Shown: positions 56,634 through 64,000 of the stretch, piece by piece
Numbering within the stretch: the first letter of the stretch is position 1
Layout of the letters: each line of letters opens with the position of its first letter
Source of the DNA: Comamonas granuli NBRC 101663
GTDB lineage: Bacteria > Pseudomonadota > Gammaproteobacteria > Burkholderiales > Burkholderiaceae_C
Direction: 5' to 3'
DNA length: 64,000 nucleotides
Assembly (NCBI RefSeq): GCF_000739995.1
Contig: NZ_BBJX01000008.1
Coordinates: 1 to 64,000, forward strand
Notes under the pieces: generated by a model
What the model was told of the DNA's origin: nothing
Seen by the model: only the letters and a program-made list of their open reading frames with translations
The model's database searches: none
Made by a program: the position numbers and the translations under genes

Positions 56634-58238
56634 ATGCGCATCGACGATTTGCGGATATCGACCCGGCTGGAGCTGGGCTTTGCCCTGCTGGGCCTGATGA
56701 TTCTGGCCATGGTGGCGGTGGTCTGGGTGCAGGTGGCCACCATGAGCGGGCTGCTGGGGGACGTCGCCAATGCGCGCATTCCGCGCATGGTGGTGGGCAG
56801 TGCCATCAAGGAAGACGTGCAGGCCATCTCCAGCAGCGTGCGCAACATGATTCTGATGCGCGACAGCTCCGCCATCATGGCCGAGGCGCAGCGCATAGGG
56901 CGCGTGCAAAAGCGCATTGATGAGCGCTTTGCCGAGCTGGAAAAGCTCCTGGCAGGCGACAGCGCCGCACAGGCGGCGCTGCGGCAGGTGCAGGCCGCAC
57001 GCAAGGCGTACGAACCGCTGCAGAACGAAACGCAGGACCTGGCAGGATCGGGCCAGGTCTTCGAGGCCAAGGATCTGCTGTTGGACCGGATGCACCCTGC
57101 CCAGCAGGCCTATTTCAGCGCCATGGACGCCCTGCTGCAACAGCAGCAAGAGCAGTTGGGCCAGGCCACCGGCGCCACGGAGCAGGCCGCCAACCGCGTG
57201 CGCGGCATGCTGCTGGCCACCACGCTGGTGGTCATGGTGCTGGGCGGCGTGCTGGCCTGGTGGATCGTGCGCTCCATCACCGGACCCTTGCGCCAGGCCG
57301 TGCGTGTCGCGCGCGCGGTGGCTGCGGGCAAGCTGCGCGAGCCCATCGAGGCGCAGGGGCGCAATGAGGTGGCGCAACTGCTGCTGGCCCTCCAGGAAAT
57401 GCAGGGCGCGCTGGCGCGCGTGGTCACGCATGTGCGCCAGAGCGCGCACAGCGTGCTGGGGGGCAGCACCGAGATCGCGCAAGGCAATATGGATCTGTCG
57501 CACCGCACCGAGGCCCAGGCCGGTGCACTGGAAGAAACCTCGGCCGCCATGCAGGAGCTGAGCGGCGCCGTGGTGCACAACGCGGACAGCGCCCAGCAGG
57601 CCAGCACCCTGGCACGGGAGGCCAGTGCCGTTGCCGAGCGCGGCGGCGCTGTGGTGGGGCAGGTGGTGGACACCATGCGCGCTATCCACACGTCCAGCCG
57701 GAAAATCGCCGACATCATCGGTGTGATCGACGGCATCGCCTTCCAGACCAACATCCTGGCTCTCAATGCCGCCGTCGAGGCGGCGCGCGCCGGCGAGCAG
57801 GGGCGGGGCTTCGCCGTGGTCGCCAGCGAGGTGCGCGCCCTGGCAGGGCGCAGCGCCGAGGCCGCGCGTGAGATCAAGGGCCTGATCTCCAGCAGCGTGC
57901 AGCGCGTGGAGCAGGGCACGGAGCTGGTGGACAAGGCCGGCGCCACCATGCAGGAGGTGGTGCAGTCCATCCGCCGGGTGACGGCCCTGGTGGGCGAGAT
58001 CAGCGGCGCCAGCGCCGAGCAGCGCTCAGGCGTGGCACAGATCGGCGAGGCGATCGCGCACATGGACCGGGTCACCCAGCAAAACGCCGCGCTGGTGGAG
58101 CAGATTGCCGCGGCAGCCACGGGACTGAGCACCCAGGCGCAGGAACTCGTGCAGGCAGTCGCGGTGTTCCAGGTGGATGCGGGCGTTGCGGCTGGTTTGC
58201 CCCGGCCGCCCGCTGTGCCGGCGCTACGCCTGTCCTGA
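56634..58238 (+). CDS. Methyl-accepting chemotaxis protein
   Basis: A 534-residue chemoreceptor. Helix 1 is at about 15-36 and helix 2 at about 188-211, enclosing a helical periplasmic domain of about 150 residues of the four-helix-bundle type. A HAMP domain follows (about 212-265), then the signalling domain with the tip DGIAFQTNILALNAAVEAARAGEQGRGFAVVASEV in pieces. The C-terminus is short and Pro-rich with no xWxxF pentapeptide, unlike the receptor at the left edge. Its place after the dct genes suggests taxis to the same compounds. AGGAGG precedes the ATG. It overlaps the convergent SulP gene by 15 bases. Confidence 0.93.
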   Translation: MRIDDLRISTRLELGFALLGLMILAMVAVVWVQVATMSGLLGDVANARIPRMVVGSAIKEDVQAISSSVRNMILMRDSSAIMAEAQRIGRVQKRIDERFAELEKLLAGDSAAQAALRQVQAARKAYEPLQNETQDLAGSGQVFEAKDLLLDRMHPAQQAYFSAMDALLQQQQEQLGQATGATEQAANRVRGMLLATTLVVMVLGGVLAWWIVRSITGPLRQAVRVARAVAAGKLREPIEAQGRNEVAQLLLALQEMQGALARVVTHVRQSAHSVLGGSTEIAQGNMDLSHRTEAQAGALEETSAAMQELSGAVVHNADSAQQASTLAREASAVAERGGAVVGQVVDTMRAIHTSSRKIADIIGVIDGIAFQTNILALNAAVEAARAGEQGRGFAVVASEVRALAGRSAEAAREIKGLISSSVQRVEQGTELVDKAGATMQEVVQSIRRVTALVGEISGASAEQRSGVAQIGEAIAHMDRVTQQNAALVEQIAAAATGLSTQAQELVQAVAVFQVDAGVAAGLPRPPAVPALRLS

Positions 58239-60089: not shown

Positions 60090-61907
60090 ATGAAAAAAGC
60101 AGTCTCTGCCTTCGATTTCGGCGCACTGGTCCAGCATGCCTGGGACCGGCAGCTCAACCTCCTGCAACTGCTGGAAGCGGCAGACCTTCTCTCTGCGCAG
60201 GGCCGCGAACCCCTGGCCGCCGTGCTCTACCATACCTGGCTGCGGCGCAACCGCACCACGCACGATCATCTGGCCTGGTTCAACCTGGGCGTCATTCTTT
60301 TCAATCAGCGGGATTTCGAGGGTGCGCGCGAGGCCTACAGCCGTGCCCTGCAACTGAGCCCCCGCTTTCTGCAGCCGCGCTTCAACCTGGGCCTGGTCTA
60401 CGAGCAGCTGGGCCAGAGCGACGCGGCCATCGCGCAGTGGCTGCACATCGAAAACAATGCCGCCCCTGACGACGAGACGGAGAGGCCCCTGCTGCTGCTG
60501 GCGCTCAACAACCTCGGGCGCCACTACGAAGACAGTGGCCGCTACGCCGAGGCCTTGGCGGCACTCACGCGCAGCCTGCGCCTGGAGCCCGACCAGCCCA
60601 AGGTGATCCACCACTGGGTGTTCCTGCGCGCCAAGCAGTGCATCTGGCCGGTCTATGAGCCCCTGGGTGCGCTCACGCCGGACCTGCAGCGCCAGCACAC
60701 CTCGGCCATGGCGATGATTGCCCTCTCCGAAGACCCGGCCATGCAACTGGCGGCGGCGCGTCACTATGTGGCGACCTCGCTGAAGCTGGACGTGCCGCGC
60801 TTGGCGCCCACCAAGCCCTACCGCCATCGCAAACTGCGCATTGGCTATTGCTCGTCTGATTTTTGCCTGCATCCGGTGGCCATGTTGACTGTCGAGCTGT
60901 TCGAGCTCCACGACCGAGAGCAGTTCGAGATCTATGGCTTCGACTGGAGCCGCGAGGACCGCTCGCCGCTGCGCCAGCGTGTCGAGGCGGCCATGGACCA
61001 CTTCGAGCGCATCCATACGCTGAGCGATGAGGCTGCGGCCCGGCGCATCCGCGAATGCGAAATCGACATCCTGGTGGACCTGCAAGGGCAAACCCTGGGT
61101 GCCCGGGCCAATATGCTGGCCTACCGGCCCGCGCCCATTCAGATCACCTACCTGGGCCTGCCGGCCACCACCGGGCTGCCATTCATTGATTACGTCATTG
61201 CCGACCGCTACCTCGTTCCCGAGTCCGCACAGCCGTTTTACTCGGAAAAGCCGCTCTACCTGCCCGACATCTACCAGGTGAGCGACCGCCAGCGCCCCGT
61301 GGGCCCCGTGCCCTCGCGCGCCGATTGCGGCTTGCCGCCTGATGCATTCGTGTTCTGTTCGTTCAACAACAACTACAAGTTCACGCCGGAGGTCTTCGCG
61401 ACCTGGATGCGCATCCTGCAGCGCGTGCCGGGCAGCGTGCTGTGGCTGCTGGCAGACAACGTCTGGGCGCAGGAAAACCTGCGGCGCACCGCACTGGAAC
61501 ATGGCGTGTCTGGGGAGCGCCTGTTGTTTGCCCCGCGGCTCCTGCCCGAGCACTACCTGGCCCGCCTGGCCGTGCCCGACCTGTTCCTCGATACCTACCC
61601 GTTCAACGCCGGCACCACGGCCAACGATGCGCTCTGGATGGGGCTGCCAGTGCTCACCATGAGCGGCCAGACTTTCGCTTCGCGCATGGCGGGCGCCTTG
61701 CTGACGGCCGCTGGCCTGCCCGAGCTGATCACGGCGGACCTGCAGGCCTATGAAGACAAGGCAGTGGCCCTGGCCCAGTCGCCCGCGGACTGCAGGCGCT
61801 TGTGTGCGCACCTGCAGCAGACGCGCGAGCACGGCGTGCTGTTCGATACGCCGCGCTTCGTGCGCCACCTAGAGGTCGAATTCCAGCGGCTAGCGGTGCA
61901 TACCTAA
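60090..61907 (+). CDS. TPR protein with SPINDLY-type O-GlcNAc transferase domain (GT41)
   Basis: A 605-residue cytoplasmic protein. TPR-like repeats cover about residues 60-205 (FNLGVILFNQRDFEGAREAYSRALQLSP, then RFNLGLVYEQLGQSDAAI, in pieces). The catalytic SPINDLY/OGT region follows: LRIGYCSSDFCLHPV, DLQGQTLGARANMLAYRPAPIQITYLG in pieces, FCSFNNNYKFTPEVFATWMRIL, and LDTYPFNAGTTANDALWMGLPVLTMSG in pieces. Such enzymes add GlcNAc or fucose to Ser/Thr. The next gene encodes a long Ser/Thr-periodic repeat protein, the obvious candidate acceptor. No strong ribosome site precedes the ATG, the first Met compatible with the fold. Confidence 0.88.
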   Translation: MKKAVSAFDFGALVQHAWDRQLNLLQLLEAADLLSAQGREPLAAVLYHTWLRRNRTTHDHLAWFNLGVILFNQRDFEGAREAYSRALQLSPRFLQPRFNLGLVYEQLGQSDAAIAQWLHIENNAAPDDETERPLLLLALNNLGRHYEDSGRYAEALAALTRSLRLEPDQPKVIHHWVFLRAKQCIWPVYEPLGALTPDLQRQHTSAMAMIALSEDPAMQLAAARHYVATSLKLDVPRLAPTKPYRHRKLRIGYCSSDFCLHPVAMLTVELFELHDREQFEIYGFDWSREDRSPLRQRVEAAMDHFERIHTLSDEAAARRIRECEIDILVDLQGQTLGARANMLAYRPAPIQITYLGLPATTGLPFIDYVIADRYLVPESAQPFYSEKPLYLPDIYQVSDRQRPVGPVPSRADCGLPPDAFVFCSFNNNYKFTPEVFATWMRILQRVPGSVLWLLADNVWAQENLRRTALEHGVSGERLLFAPRLLPEHYLARLAVPDLFLDTYPFNAGTTANDALWMGLPVLTMSGQTFASRMAGALLTAAGLPELITADLQAYEDKAVALAQSPADCRRLCAHLQQTREHGVLFDTPRFVRHLEVEFQRLAVHT

Positions 61908-62073
61908 AAACCAGTAGGTGCTCTACCGTCTATTGATATATTTTGTAACATTATTGAACATTTTGACGCAAACCCTTAAGAAGTTTGCAGCGCCGCCGAT
62001 AAGAATTTGTCGAATCCTGGACGCAGAGCTTGCCCGCTGGCGTTCTGCTTGGTTGTATTGAAGGAGCAAAGCT
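61908..62073 (+). promoter_or_regulatory. AT-rich leader and promoter region of the octapeptide-repeat gene
   Basis: The row 61921-61980 has only 19 of 60 G+C, by far the lowest seen in the window. TTGAAC (61954-61959) and TTAAGA (61976-61981), 16 bases apart, form a possible promoter, and TTGACG at 61963 is another -35 candidate. A strong ribosome site, AAGGAG (62061-62066), stands seven bases before the ATG. The composition resembles regions bound by H-NS-like silencers. Confidence 0.5.
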
Positions 62074-64000
62074 ATGGCGATTACCTCGTTTTCCGGTCTG
62101 TCGTTGGATCAGATTTCCGCACTGTCCAAGGCGGACATCGCCAGCATCTCCAGCAATAGTGATGAGGTCAAAAAACTTACAGCGACACAGATCCAGGCTT
62201 TTTCGGCCGAGCAGGTCAGTGGCCTGGACAGCAGCACCATCGTCAACCTGAGCGCCACGGCCCTCAAGGCACTGTCGGCCGATCAGGTTCGCTATGGCCT
62301 CACCTCCGATCAGGTGGGTGGGCTATCGTCCACCCAGCTCAAGGCGCTGACCGCCGGGCAGATGGCGGCGTTGCAGTATGACCAGATCGACCAATTCCGG
62401 GGTGATGCCAGCAAGCTTGCGGCCTTCGCCACGGCGCAGATTGCCGCGCTGACTGCCGACCAGCTTCGGCAAATCGAAAAAGACGACGCCAGCGGTCAGC
62501 TCAACAACTTGCAGGTCCAGGCGCTCAAAGGTGAACAGCTCGACATCATCGACACATTCACCACCGACCAGATCCGCGCCTTGACGGCCACGCAAATGGG
62601 CTCGTTGACGGAAGAGCAAATCCGCGCCATGAGTCCCGCCCAGGTGGGCGCACTTACCTCCGGCCAGGTCCAGGCGCTCAAGGCCACGCAGCTGAACGCC
62701 ATTGACGCCCTGGGTAGTGCGGTGTCCATGCTGTCAGCCAAGCAATTGGCCGGGCTGAGCAACGACCAGATAGGCTTGCTGGGCAACGACCAGCTGCAGG
62801 CCTTGAGTGGAACGCAGATCAAGGCTCTGGGCATCAAGGTGGCCAGTTTGTCTGATACACAAATCCGCAACCTGGGAGCCACCCAGGTGCGCGCGATGAC
62901 CAATCAGCAACTCACCGCGCTCACGAATACCCAGGTAGCCGCTCTGTCCACCGACAACCTCAAGGCCCTGAGCGGCGCGCAGATCGGCGCCCTGGGTACC
63001 GATGTCAGCAGCTTCTCCGACGAGCAATTGAGCGCCCTGCTGCCCACGCAGGCCGCAGCGCTGAGCTCCACCCAGATCGCAGCGCTGGGCAGCAACCAGA
63101 TCGCATCGCTCAGCAGCGCGGCCATCAAGGCGCTGACCACTACCCAGATCAGCTACCTGTCGGGCGCGCAGCTCGGTGCCTTGACGGATGTGCAGCTTGG
63201 CGCCATGACGTCGGGGCAGGTGCGCATGCTGGTTGCCAACAAAGCCAACACTGACGGCATCAAGGCCCTGGCTTCGGACCAGGTTGCGGCCCTGTCCACG
63301 GCAGCCATTGCGGCGCTGTCCAATGCCCAGATTGGTCAATTCAGCTCCGATCACATCAAGGCGCTCTCCACAGACCAAGTGAATGCACTGACGGCCGCGC
63401 AAGTCAAGACGTTGGGGGCGACAACCGATGGTATCGGTGCGCTCAGCAACGAGCAGATCGCCGCGCTCTCCACACGCGCGGTGGCCGCCTTGACTACGGA
63501 CCAAATTCAGACCCTGAGCTCCACGCAGATCCAGGCCCTCACGGTGGGCCAGGTCGAAAAGCTCAACAAGGCCGCTGTGGGCAAGCTCAGTGCTGACCAG
63601 CTCAAGCTCATGGCCTATGACGAGGTGGCCAAGCTCGTCCCTACCCTGGCAGCCAGCCAGGTCGCCGCGCTGACAACCGACCAGGTCCAATCCCTCACGA
63701 GCACGCAGTTCAAGGCGCTCACCACGGCCCAGGTGGCCGCGCTCTCGACCGACCAGATTGCCGCGCTCACCACGCAGCAGTTGGATGCCATGACCACAGC
63801 GCAGGTCCGGGCCTTGAAGACTGACCAGTTGCAAAAGCTCAGCAACGAACAAATCGGCGCCCTGCAGGACGTGGCCATTGCCGCGCTCAAGACCGAGCAG
63901 GTCGAGAAGCTCAGCGCGGAACAGATCACGGCCTTGAAGGATTCCCAGGCAGCCAAACTGACCGCAGCGCAAGTCAAGGTGTTGGATGCCAGCCAGCTCA
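62074..64000 (+). CDS. Giant octapeptide-repeat protein, N-terminal 642 residues (3' end outside window)
   Basis: The frame is open from ATG 62074 to the window end. After MAITSFSG almost the whole sequence is a tandem array of eight-residue units with the pattern L-[ST]-x-x-Q-[IVL]-x-A. I count about 69 units, interrupted by about ten irregular spacers (for example LGIKVAS, LGTDVSS, LVANKANTDGIKA). About 50 of 68 complete units have Ser or Thr at the second position. There is no Cys or Trp, and no N-terminal signal peptide, so secretion (perhaps type I with a C-terminal signal) would depend on sequence beyond the window. The S/T-x-x-Q pattern suits a helix-capping box, suggesting a solenoid of short helices. 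Function unknown; an adhesin, S-layer or fibre is my inference. Confidence 0.9.
   Translation, partial: MAITSFSGLSLDQISALSKADIASISSNSDEVKKLTATQIQAFSAEQVSGLDSSTIVNLSATALKALSADQVRYGLTSDQVGGLSSTQLKALTAGQMAALQYDQIDQFRGDASKLAAFATAQIAALTADQLRQIEKDDASGQLNNLQVQALKGEQLDIIDTFTTDQIRALTATQMGSLTEEQIRAMSPAQVGALTSGQVQALKATQLNAIDALGSAVSMLSAKQLAGLSNDQIGLLGNDQLQALSGTQIKALGIKVASLSDTQIRNLGATQVRAMTNQQLTALTNTQVAALSTDNLKALSGAQIGALGTDVSSFSDEQLSALLPTQAAALSSTQIAALGSNQIASLSSAAIKALTTTQISYLSGAQLGALTDVQLGAMTSGQVRMLVANKANTDGIKALASDQVAALSTAAIAALSNAQIGQFSSDHIKALSTDQVNALTAAQVKTLGATTDGIGALSNEQIAALSTRAVAALTTDQIQTLSSTQIQALTVGQVEKLNKAAVGKLSADQLKLMAYDEVAKLVPTLAASQVAALTTDQVQSLTSTQFKALTTAQVAALSTDQIAALTTQQLDAMTTAQVRALKTDQLQKLSNEQIGALQDVAIAALKTEQVEKLSAEQITALKDSQAAKLTAAQVKVLDASQL
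62098..64000 (+). repeat. 24-base / 8-residue tandem repeat array
   Basis: The octads are encoded by 24-base units that are well diverged in DNA sequence while the protein pattern is kept. This suggests old duplication under selection rather than recent expansion. The most regular stretch is at the right end, from about 63650, for example LTTAQVAA-LSTDQIAA. Confidence 0.85.

Follow-up and report, generated by a model that had tools for sequence, protein, structure and literature searches.

A TPR-containing GT41 glycosyltransferase gene beside an ALTTAQ octad-repeat gene in Comamonas granuli: a candidate O-glycosylation pair

When a gene for a protein glycosyltransferase lies next to a gene for a protein that displays Ser or Thr at every eighth residue, do the two encode an enzyme and its acceptor? 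The question is raised by a 64,000-nucleotide stretch of Comamonas granuli NBRC 101663 (contig NZ_BBJX01000008.1, positions 1 to 64,000; the window), in which a gene for a glycosyltransferase of family 41 (GT41, OGT/SPINDLY-type) with tetratricopeptide repeats (TPRs) (60090..61907, + strand) precedes a gene for an ALTTAQ octad-repeat protein (62074..64000, + strand). A preliminary description had placed the GT41 gene 166 bases upstream of the repeat gene on the same strand, as the coordinates 61907 and 62074 confirm, and had proposed the repeat protein as a glycosylated surface fiber whose Ser/Thr ladder supplies the acceptor sites. Our analyses make it fairly probable that the two genes encode a dedicated cytoplasmic O-glycosylation enzyme-substrate pair, with ALTTAQ proteins as a new class of acceptor. 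The TPR domain of the enzyme would bind the ALTTAQ protein in the cytoplasm, and, ahead of export, sugars would be added to Ser/Thr at the starts of its short helices, chiefly at octad position 4 (helix residue N1).

Pairing of GT41 and ALTTAQ genes among relatives

The GT41 gene runs from an ATG at 60090 to a stop codon ending at 61907 and encodes 605 residues. Its product matches PF13844 (E 1.4e-81) and TPR_1 (E 9.5e-21), with a whole-protein PF13844 score of 274.8 bits against a curated cut-off of 25, and, judged by its family, it looks able to transfer a sugar to protein. The closest solved relative is XcOGT (2jlb; E 3e-95), with OGT entries next; the XcOGT alignment covers residues 57-591 (535 residues) and pairs H261 and K430 with a His and a Lys that we take to be catalytic in XcOGT. 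What sets the window enzyme apart from these solved GT41 enzymes is that it is a bacterial protein adjoining one conspicuous candidate acceptor. No export signal is visible on it by eye. The repeat gene, which starts with an ATG at 62074, is cut by the end of the window and continues to 65814 on contig C27. Its product of 1,246 residues belongs to PF20080, which Pfam names the ALTTAQ repeat: the whole protein matches in 21 stretches (E 8.7e-157), scoring 509 bits against a cut-off of 26.4.

The preliminary description had proposed looking for adjacency and co-occurrence of the two families in relatives, and both were found. GT41 loci were collected with an alignment of the window GT41 and eight GT41s picked for having ALTTAQ within about 30 kb, the repeat itself being absent from the query, and the analysis used the top 79 distinct loci among 501 relatives; this set leans to the ALTTAQ-linked GT41 subfamily because the query was built from GT41s near ALTTAQ. 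An ALTTAQ gene lies within 600 bases of the GT41 match in 49 of the 79 loci (on the same strand in 48), and an octad-rich gene occurs in the fetched flank in 56/79, both counts being lower bounds since many flanks end at contig ends. The pair is present in Cupriavidus, Methylomonas, Thauera, Pseudomonas, Duganella, Paraburkholderia, Holophagaceae, Riflebacteria, and Pelobacter (names per sequence records), and on a Syntrophobacteraceae contig the two genes are 1.2 kb apart. The nearest repeat gene is 5′ of the GT41 gene in 48 of the 49 adjacent loci. The GT41-first order of the window is common to locus L098, whose GT41 is the nearest relative (73% identical to that of the window), and locus L111 has repeats on both sides.

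Co-occurrence was also seen in genome draws made without regard to the query. An even draw of 150 genomes from the window's own family (f1) contained ALTTAQ in 39 genomes and GT41 in 91; GT41 was found in 35 of the 39 ALTTAQ genomes versus 56 of the 111 others (Fisher p 8e-6), and the co-occurrence persisted among flagellin-positive genomes only (p 0.001). Of the 38 other ALTTAQ genomes of this draw, at least 13 carry a GT41 no more than about 30 kb from the repeats. Eighteen of the 20 other genomes with ALTTAQ (at E 1e-6) in a phylum-wide draw of 398 genomes carry GT41, as do 15 of 21 ALTTAQ genomes in a draw of 151 genomes from family f51, where the two are within about 2 kb in at least 11 of the 21.

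A phylogenetic tree of 130 GT41 proteins (FastTree, midpoint root) contains a split with a support of 99, and all 51 GT41s that adjoin an ALTTAQ gene fall on the same side of it, which has 94 rows. The other side comprises 36 GT41 rows, none with adjacent ALTTAQ, most of which have only about 1.4 kb of flank. The tree omits 13 of the 79 loci for which no matching open reading frame (ORF) was found; in six of these, ALTTAQ is no more than 600 bases away. Six further GT41 sequences, including the second GT41 of the window genome, were omitted for coverage.

Several observations weigh against the enzyme-substrate reading. Beyond the query design, which favours the ALTTAQ-linked subfamily among the 79 loci, 23 of these showed no ALTTAQ in the first test, and a looser parse found farther copies in 5. 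The 94-row branch includes 29 rows without ALTTAQ in the available stretch and 14 with distant copies only. ALTTAQ genomes with no GT41 match numbered four in the family draw, two in the phylum draw, and six in f51.

Some loci carry more than one GT41. Three GT41 matches are clustered downstream of the ALTTAQ gene in L154 and L176, and two matches occur in L151, L161, L164, L165, L166, and L172. Single open frames of about 2,460 to 3,780 residues that encode two to four consecutive GT41 domains were seen in family f47 (G252 C92 27095-35212, G213 C29, G264 C379, and G276 C153); G252 carries ALTTAQ on the same contig as this frame.

The octad solenoid and its Ser/Thr positions

The preliminary description had counted Ser or Thr at one position in about 50 of 68 octads, and a first parse of the part in the window agrees, with 51 of 70 octads carrying Ser/Thr at position 3 (92 of 134 in the whole protein). 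A second parse that leaves positions 3, 4, 5, and 8 unscored found position-3 Ser/Thr in 81 of 119 octads of the whole protein (binomial p 2e-31 against 18.9% Ser/Thr overall) and in 47 of the 62 in the window part, while 200 shuffled proteins gave a mean of 0.66 octads in runs of at least 3 (maximum, 6). The position-3 Ser codons of the repeat gene are mixed (21 AGY and 17 TCN), and tandem-repeat finding at the DNA level returned only three short arrays of 2.3 to 2.7 copies, which argues that the octad pattern is held at the protein level and not by fresh DNA copying.

The ALTTAQ protein is predicted to form a long solenoid with one short helix per octad. Fourteen and a half octads (residues 524-639; 63643..63990, + strand) were modelled with AlphaFold2 from an alignment of 63 segments, that of the window and 62 out of 109 non-redundant segments of the repeat in relatives, giving a predicted local distance difference test (pLDDT) score of 95.3 and a predicted template modelling (pTM) score of 0.84. 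In the model, each octad is one helix of 4 to 8 residues that starts at octad position 4, which places position 3 at the N-cap and makes the conserved Gln at position 6 the third residue of the helix. An N-cap Ser/Thr with Gln at the third helix residue is a capping-box pattern, and the position-3 Ser/Thr would thus hold the fold with the Gln as its putative capping-box partner, an assignment made from residue positions. A Foldseek search with the model returned no match with E < 0.001; chains of mesothelin (8cx3) fill the top nine rows (best template modelling score, 0.56; E 0.04), a weak likeness of fold only. By sequence, the repeat protein matches HeliScrew4 (9zem; E 5e-14), presumably a designed protein given its name and regular sequence, on which we found no paper.

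Which Ser/Thr would the enzyme use? Linked ALTTAQ proteins of f51 (12 ORF entries from 10 loci) were compared with seven control ORFs, six from genomes without a GT41 match and one (G634) from a genome with GT41 elsewhere. The reading of the position-3 ladder as acceptor sites did not survive this comparison: the fraction of octads with position-3 Ser/Thr is 0.64 to 0.81 in the controls and 0.71 to 0.89 in the linked entries (p 0.34), and in the 79-locus set it is slightly below the controls (median, 0.67; p 0.05). Position 3 is thus no poorer in Ser/Thr when the genome lacks GT41, and we rejected this ladder as evidence for acceptor sites; such regularity can have a structural origin and mislead. 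Position 4, on the other hand, tracks GT41, with Ser/Thr fractions of 0.62 to 0.87 in the linked entries versus 0.27 to 0.66 in the controls (p 0.0008), a median of 0.86 across 65 ORFs from the 79 loci, and a median of 0.98 (lowest, 0.68) in 19 ORFs of GT41-positive f1 relatives. Position 5 is alike in linked f51 entries and controls (p 0.38). The controls often carry Ala or Pro at position 4, so the fold seems not to need Ser/Thr there. Collectively, these comparisons point to octad position 4 as a likelier acceptor than position 3.

The p value for position 4 overstates the case, given the small number of controls, the kinship among some of them, and the overlap between some linked entries. 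Four controls (G567, G660, G532, and G634) are alike in length and composition and may count as one, and others have high position-4 values (G596, 0.52; G636, 0.66; and G024, a 253-residue ORF at a contig edge, 0.64). Overlapping ORFs were kept, and L264 gives three of the 12 linked entries, one overlapping the other two. L274 (G571) and L226/L275 (G341) had no ORF passing the filter and were left out, and L260 and L271 are in the position counts but outside the linked f51 set. The preferred reading is also weakened by the window itself: position-4 Ser/Thr in its protein is only 0.40 (48/119), inside the control range, and it is similarly low in L098 (0.39) and G493 (0.37) despite the GT41 beside them. 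Either fewer position-4 sites are used in the window lineage or the constraint has been relaxed. The window and L098 repeat proteins are 51% identical, and Ser/Thr residues of the window protein are also Ser/Thr in L098 at 79% for position 3, 58% for position 4, and 30% for position 5. Of the enzyme-acceptor link in the preliminary description, the pairing is therefore real and widespread, whereas the position-3 pattern has fallen away and the GT41-tracking position that takes its place is weak in the window protein.

These data also bear on two other explanations. The Ser/Thr ladder might be purely structural, reflecting N-cap and N1 preferences, with the adjacency due to joint inheritance or transfer of functionally separate genes. 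Such an account fits the place of position 3 at the N-cap, rich in Ser/Thr with or without GT41, and the window value for position 4, but we regard it as quite unlikely because the adjacency persists across divergent GT41s and several phyla (names per sequence records) and position 4 differs with GT41 within a single family (f51). Alternatively, the ALTTAQ protein may be a partner or scaffold whose solenoid is bound by the TPRs while the enzyme acts on something else. The TPRs and the ALTTAQ protein are both solenoids and could bind side by side, the acceptor status is read from gene position and composition only, and the window protein keeps the pair yet has few position-4 Ser/Thr. The position-4 Ser/Thr of the f1 proteins, never below 0.68, would be hard to explain for a mere scaffold, which makes this explanation very improbable.

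Comparison with known systems and the route out of the cell

The closest studied enzyme that we found is FlmG of Caulobacter crescentus. FlmG is reported to have 596 residues, with N-terminal TPRs that choose the substrate and a C-terminal glycosyltransferase domain, and to O-glycosylate flagellins, which are exported filament proteins, in the cytoplasm; the same report describes acceptor choice by cytoplasmic O-glycosyltransferases as poorly understood (PMC7591256). The window enzyme likewise contains both a TPR domain and a glycosyltransferase domain, with a proposed acceptor that would be exported, and we counted the TPR-directed substrate choice reported for FlmG in favour of the GT41-ALTTAQ pair. 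The present case differs from FlmG in that the candidate acceptor is a giant octad solenoid and that a separate, divergent GT41 lies near the flagellins of the window genome.

The genes for HMW1C and HMW1 are themselves paired. The HMW1C-type N-glycosyltransferase is reported to be a GT41-type enzyme with a large exported acceptor, the HMW1 adhesin, and to act on Asn, unlike the present candidate (PMC3012730, PMC3983070). The window enzyme carries TPRs and scores 35.5 bits on the HMW1C-like N-glycosyltransferase model (NF049992/NGTferase), whose equivalog cut-off is 1,000, and the 1,246-residue repeat protein has only 6 Asn sequons; N-glycosylation of the HMW1C type was ruled out on these grounds.

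How the ALTTAQ protein might leave the cell is suggested by relatives. In f1 relatives G013, G036, and G062, the GT41 gene is followed by type-I-secretion-like ATP-binding cassette (ABC) transporter, HlyD, and TolC genes and then by sugar genes (FdtA-type isomerase, DegT aminotransferase, and hexapeptide acetyltransferase) and giant repeat genes. Among the 79 loci, FdtA-like matches occur in 24, DegT-like in 26, ABC-like in 18 (only 25 to 31% identical), and HlyD-like in 19. We infer that the ALTTAQ protein is probably exported by type I secretion in relatives with such genes in the same cluster. Other findings fit this route less well. FdtA-like, DegT-like, ABC, HlyD, and TolC genes were all absent beside the window pair, none of the 79 loci gave a match to the f1 type of TolC, and the long stretches of the window genome that match the ABC transporter of the relatives are 27 to 31% identical to it. 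FdtA is also absent from the window genome (no PF05523 match), leaving a dTDP-amino-sugar donor made by the FdtA route unsupported there. The surface fiber of the preliminary description accordingly stays a conjecture, as no signal peptide was seen by eye on the ALTTAQ protein and no secretion genes adjoin the window pair.

Elsewhere in the window genome, an unlinked cluster (C34 188754-195077; L177) contains two ABC genes and HlyD-like and TolC-like genes. It is flanked on both sides by glycosyltransferase-like genes, and a gene that may encode a substrate lies upstream (all named by eye).

A more ambitious picture, which we hold only tentatively and think somewhat less than even in probability, is a widespread and hitherto undescribed bacterial TPR-GT41 system that places one sugar on the first turn of nearly every helix of a giant helical-screw protein, building a regular sugar ladder of up to hundreds of units on a protein that some lineages would export by type I secretion and others would produce along with the flagellum. 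If the pairing holds, one enzyme acting on one acceptor, whose site recurs at the same point of a simple fold, would offer a clean test bed, and the named repeat family PF20080 would gain a testable role. Both the enzyme family and the repeat family already have names; neither the pairing nor the predicted acceptor position nor the sigma-28 link described below was found in the literature searched, which excluded preprints and most subscription papers and included no search for the sigma-28 link alone. No paper on the PF20080 repeat or its GT41 link was found there, and text matches carried the string pf20080 only and none of the repeat motifs.

The intergenic region and a flagellar connection

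The gap between the two genes contains two elements on the + strand. A terminator-like hairpin (61912..61935) found by pattern scan stands directly after the GT41 stop; it is weak, with 9 pairs, 3 of them G-C. A sigma-28 (FliA) promoter-like site, TTAAGAAG-N11-GCCGATAA (61976..62002), lies 71 bases before the ATG of the repeat gene. Compared with what we take to be the sigma-28 consensus, TAAAGTTT-N11-GCCGATAA, its −10 half is exact and its −35 half is partial. Given both elements, a single operon of GT41 and ALTTAQ is doubtful in the window, and the repeat gene may be transcribed separately; the hairpin between the genes also counts against the proposed pair.

Similar sites precede 16 of 57 ALTTAQ ORF starts (window excluded), versus 31 of 832 other genes and 10 of 1,140 shuffles. 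Measured from the first octads, sites were found in 13 of 63 ALTTAQ genes (window included) versus 75 of 4,680 random windows; the same scan gave 2/76 for GT41 genes and 7/24 for flagellin genes. The site-bearing loci include the window, L098, L100, L101, L107, L109, L133, L135, and L137, among others, and those listed that are present in the tree all sit in the GT41 branch of the window (L107 is not in the tree). The L135 site was seen in the ORF-start scan only, and the L137 and L098 sites are more than 350 bases before the first octads. No such site was found at L104, L106, or L111, at five Duganella-type genes tested, or at all but 1 of 17 f51 ALTTAQ genes. In the window lineage, ALTTAQ expression may be tied to flagellar assembly through a sigma-28 promoter.

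This connection raises the alternative that the GT41 modifies flagellin or another protein and that the ALTTAQ gene is simply a neighbour in an island of motility or surface-structure genes. Besides the sigma-28-like sites upstream of ALTTAQ genes, it draws support from flagellin-like matches, present in 13 of the 79 fetched loci, and from FlmG, which is reported to act on flagellins (PMC7591256). In the f1 draw, flagellin is commoner in ALTTAQ genomes (37/39 versus 74/111; p 3e-4), although the association is not significant among GT41-positive genomes (p 0.07). Direct ALTTAQ adjacency in 49 of 79 loci, the tracking of GT41 by repeat position 4, and the lack of a flagellin match in two of the 39 ALTTAQ genomes (both drafts, 86 to 90% complete) are less easily explained in this way. 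The window genome moreover has a second, divergent GT41 (contig C22 117552-118682, L179, within a frame of 988 residues), about 6 kb from flagellin genes and near a DegT-like gene, that is perhaps the flagellin enzyme, while no flagellin was seen among the ORFs read beside the window GT41. We therefore judge the island explanation unlikely and retain the GT41-ALTTAQ pair as the preferred reading.

By eye, the pair stands as a same-strand unit between a SulP-like transporter gene upstream and a metG-like gene downstream, both on the opposite strand, and a gene resembling a methyl-accepting chemotaxis protein lies close by, at window positions 56634-58238.

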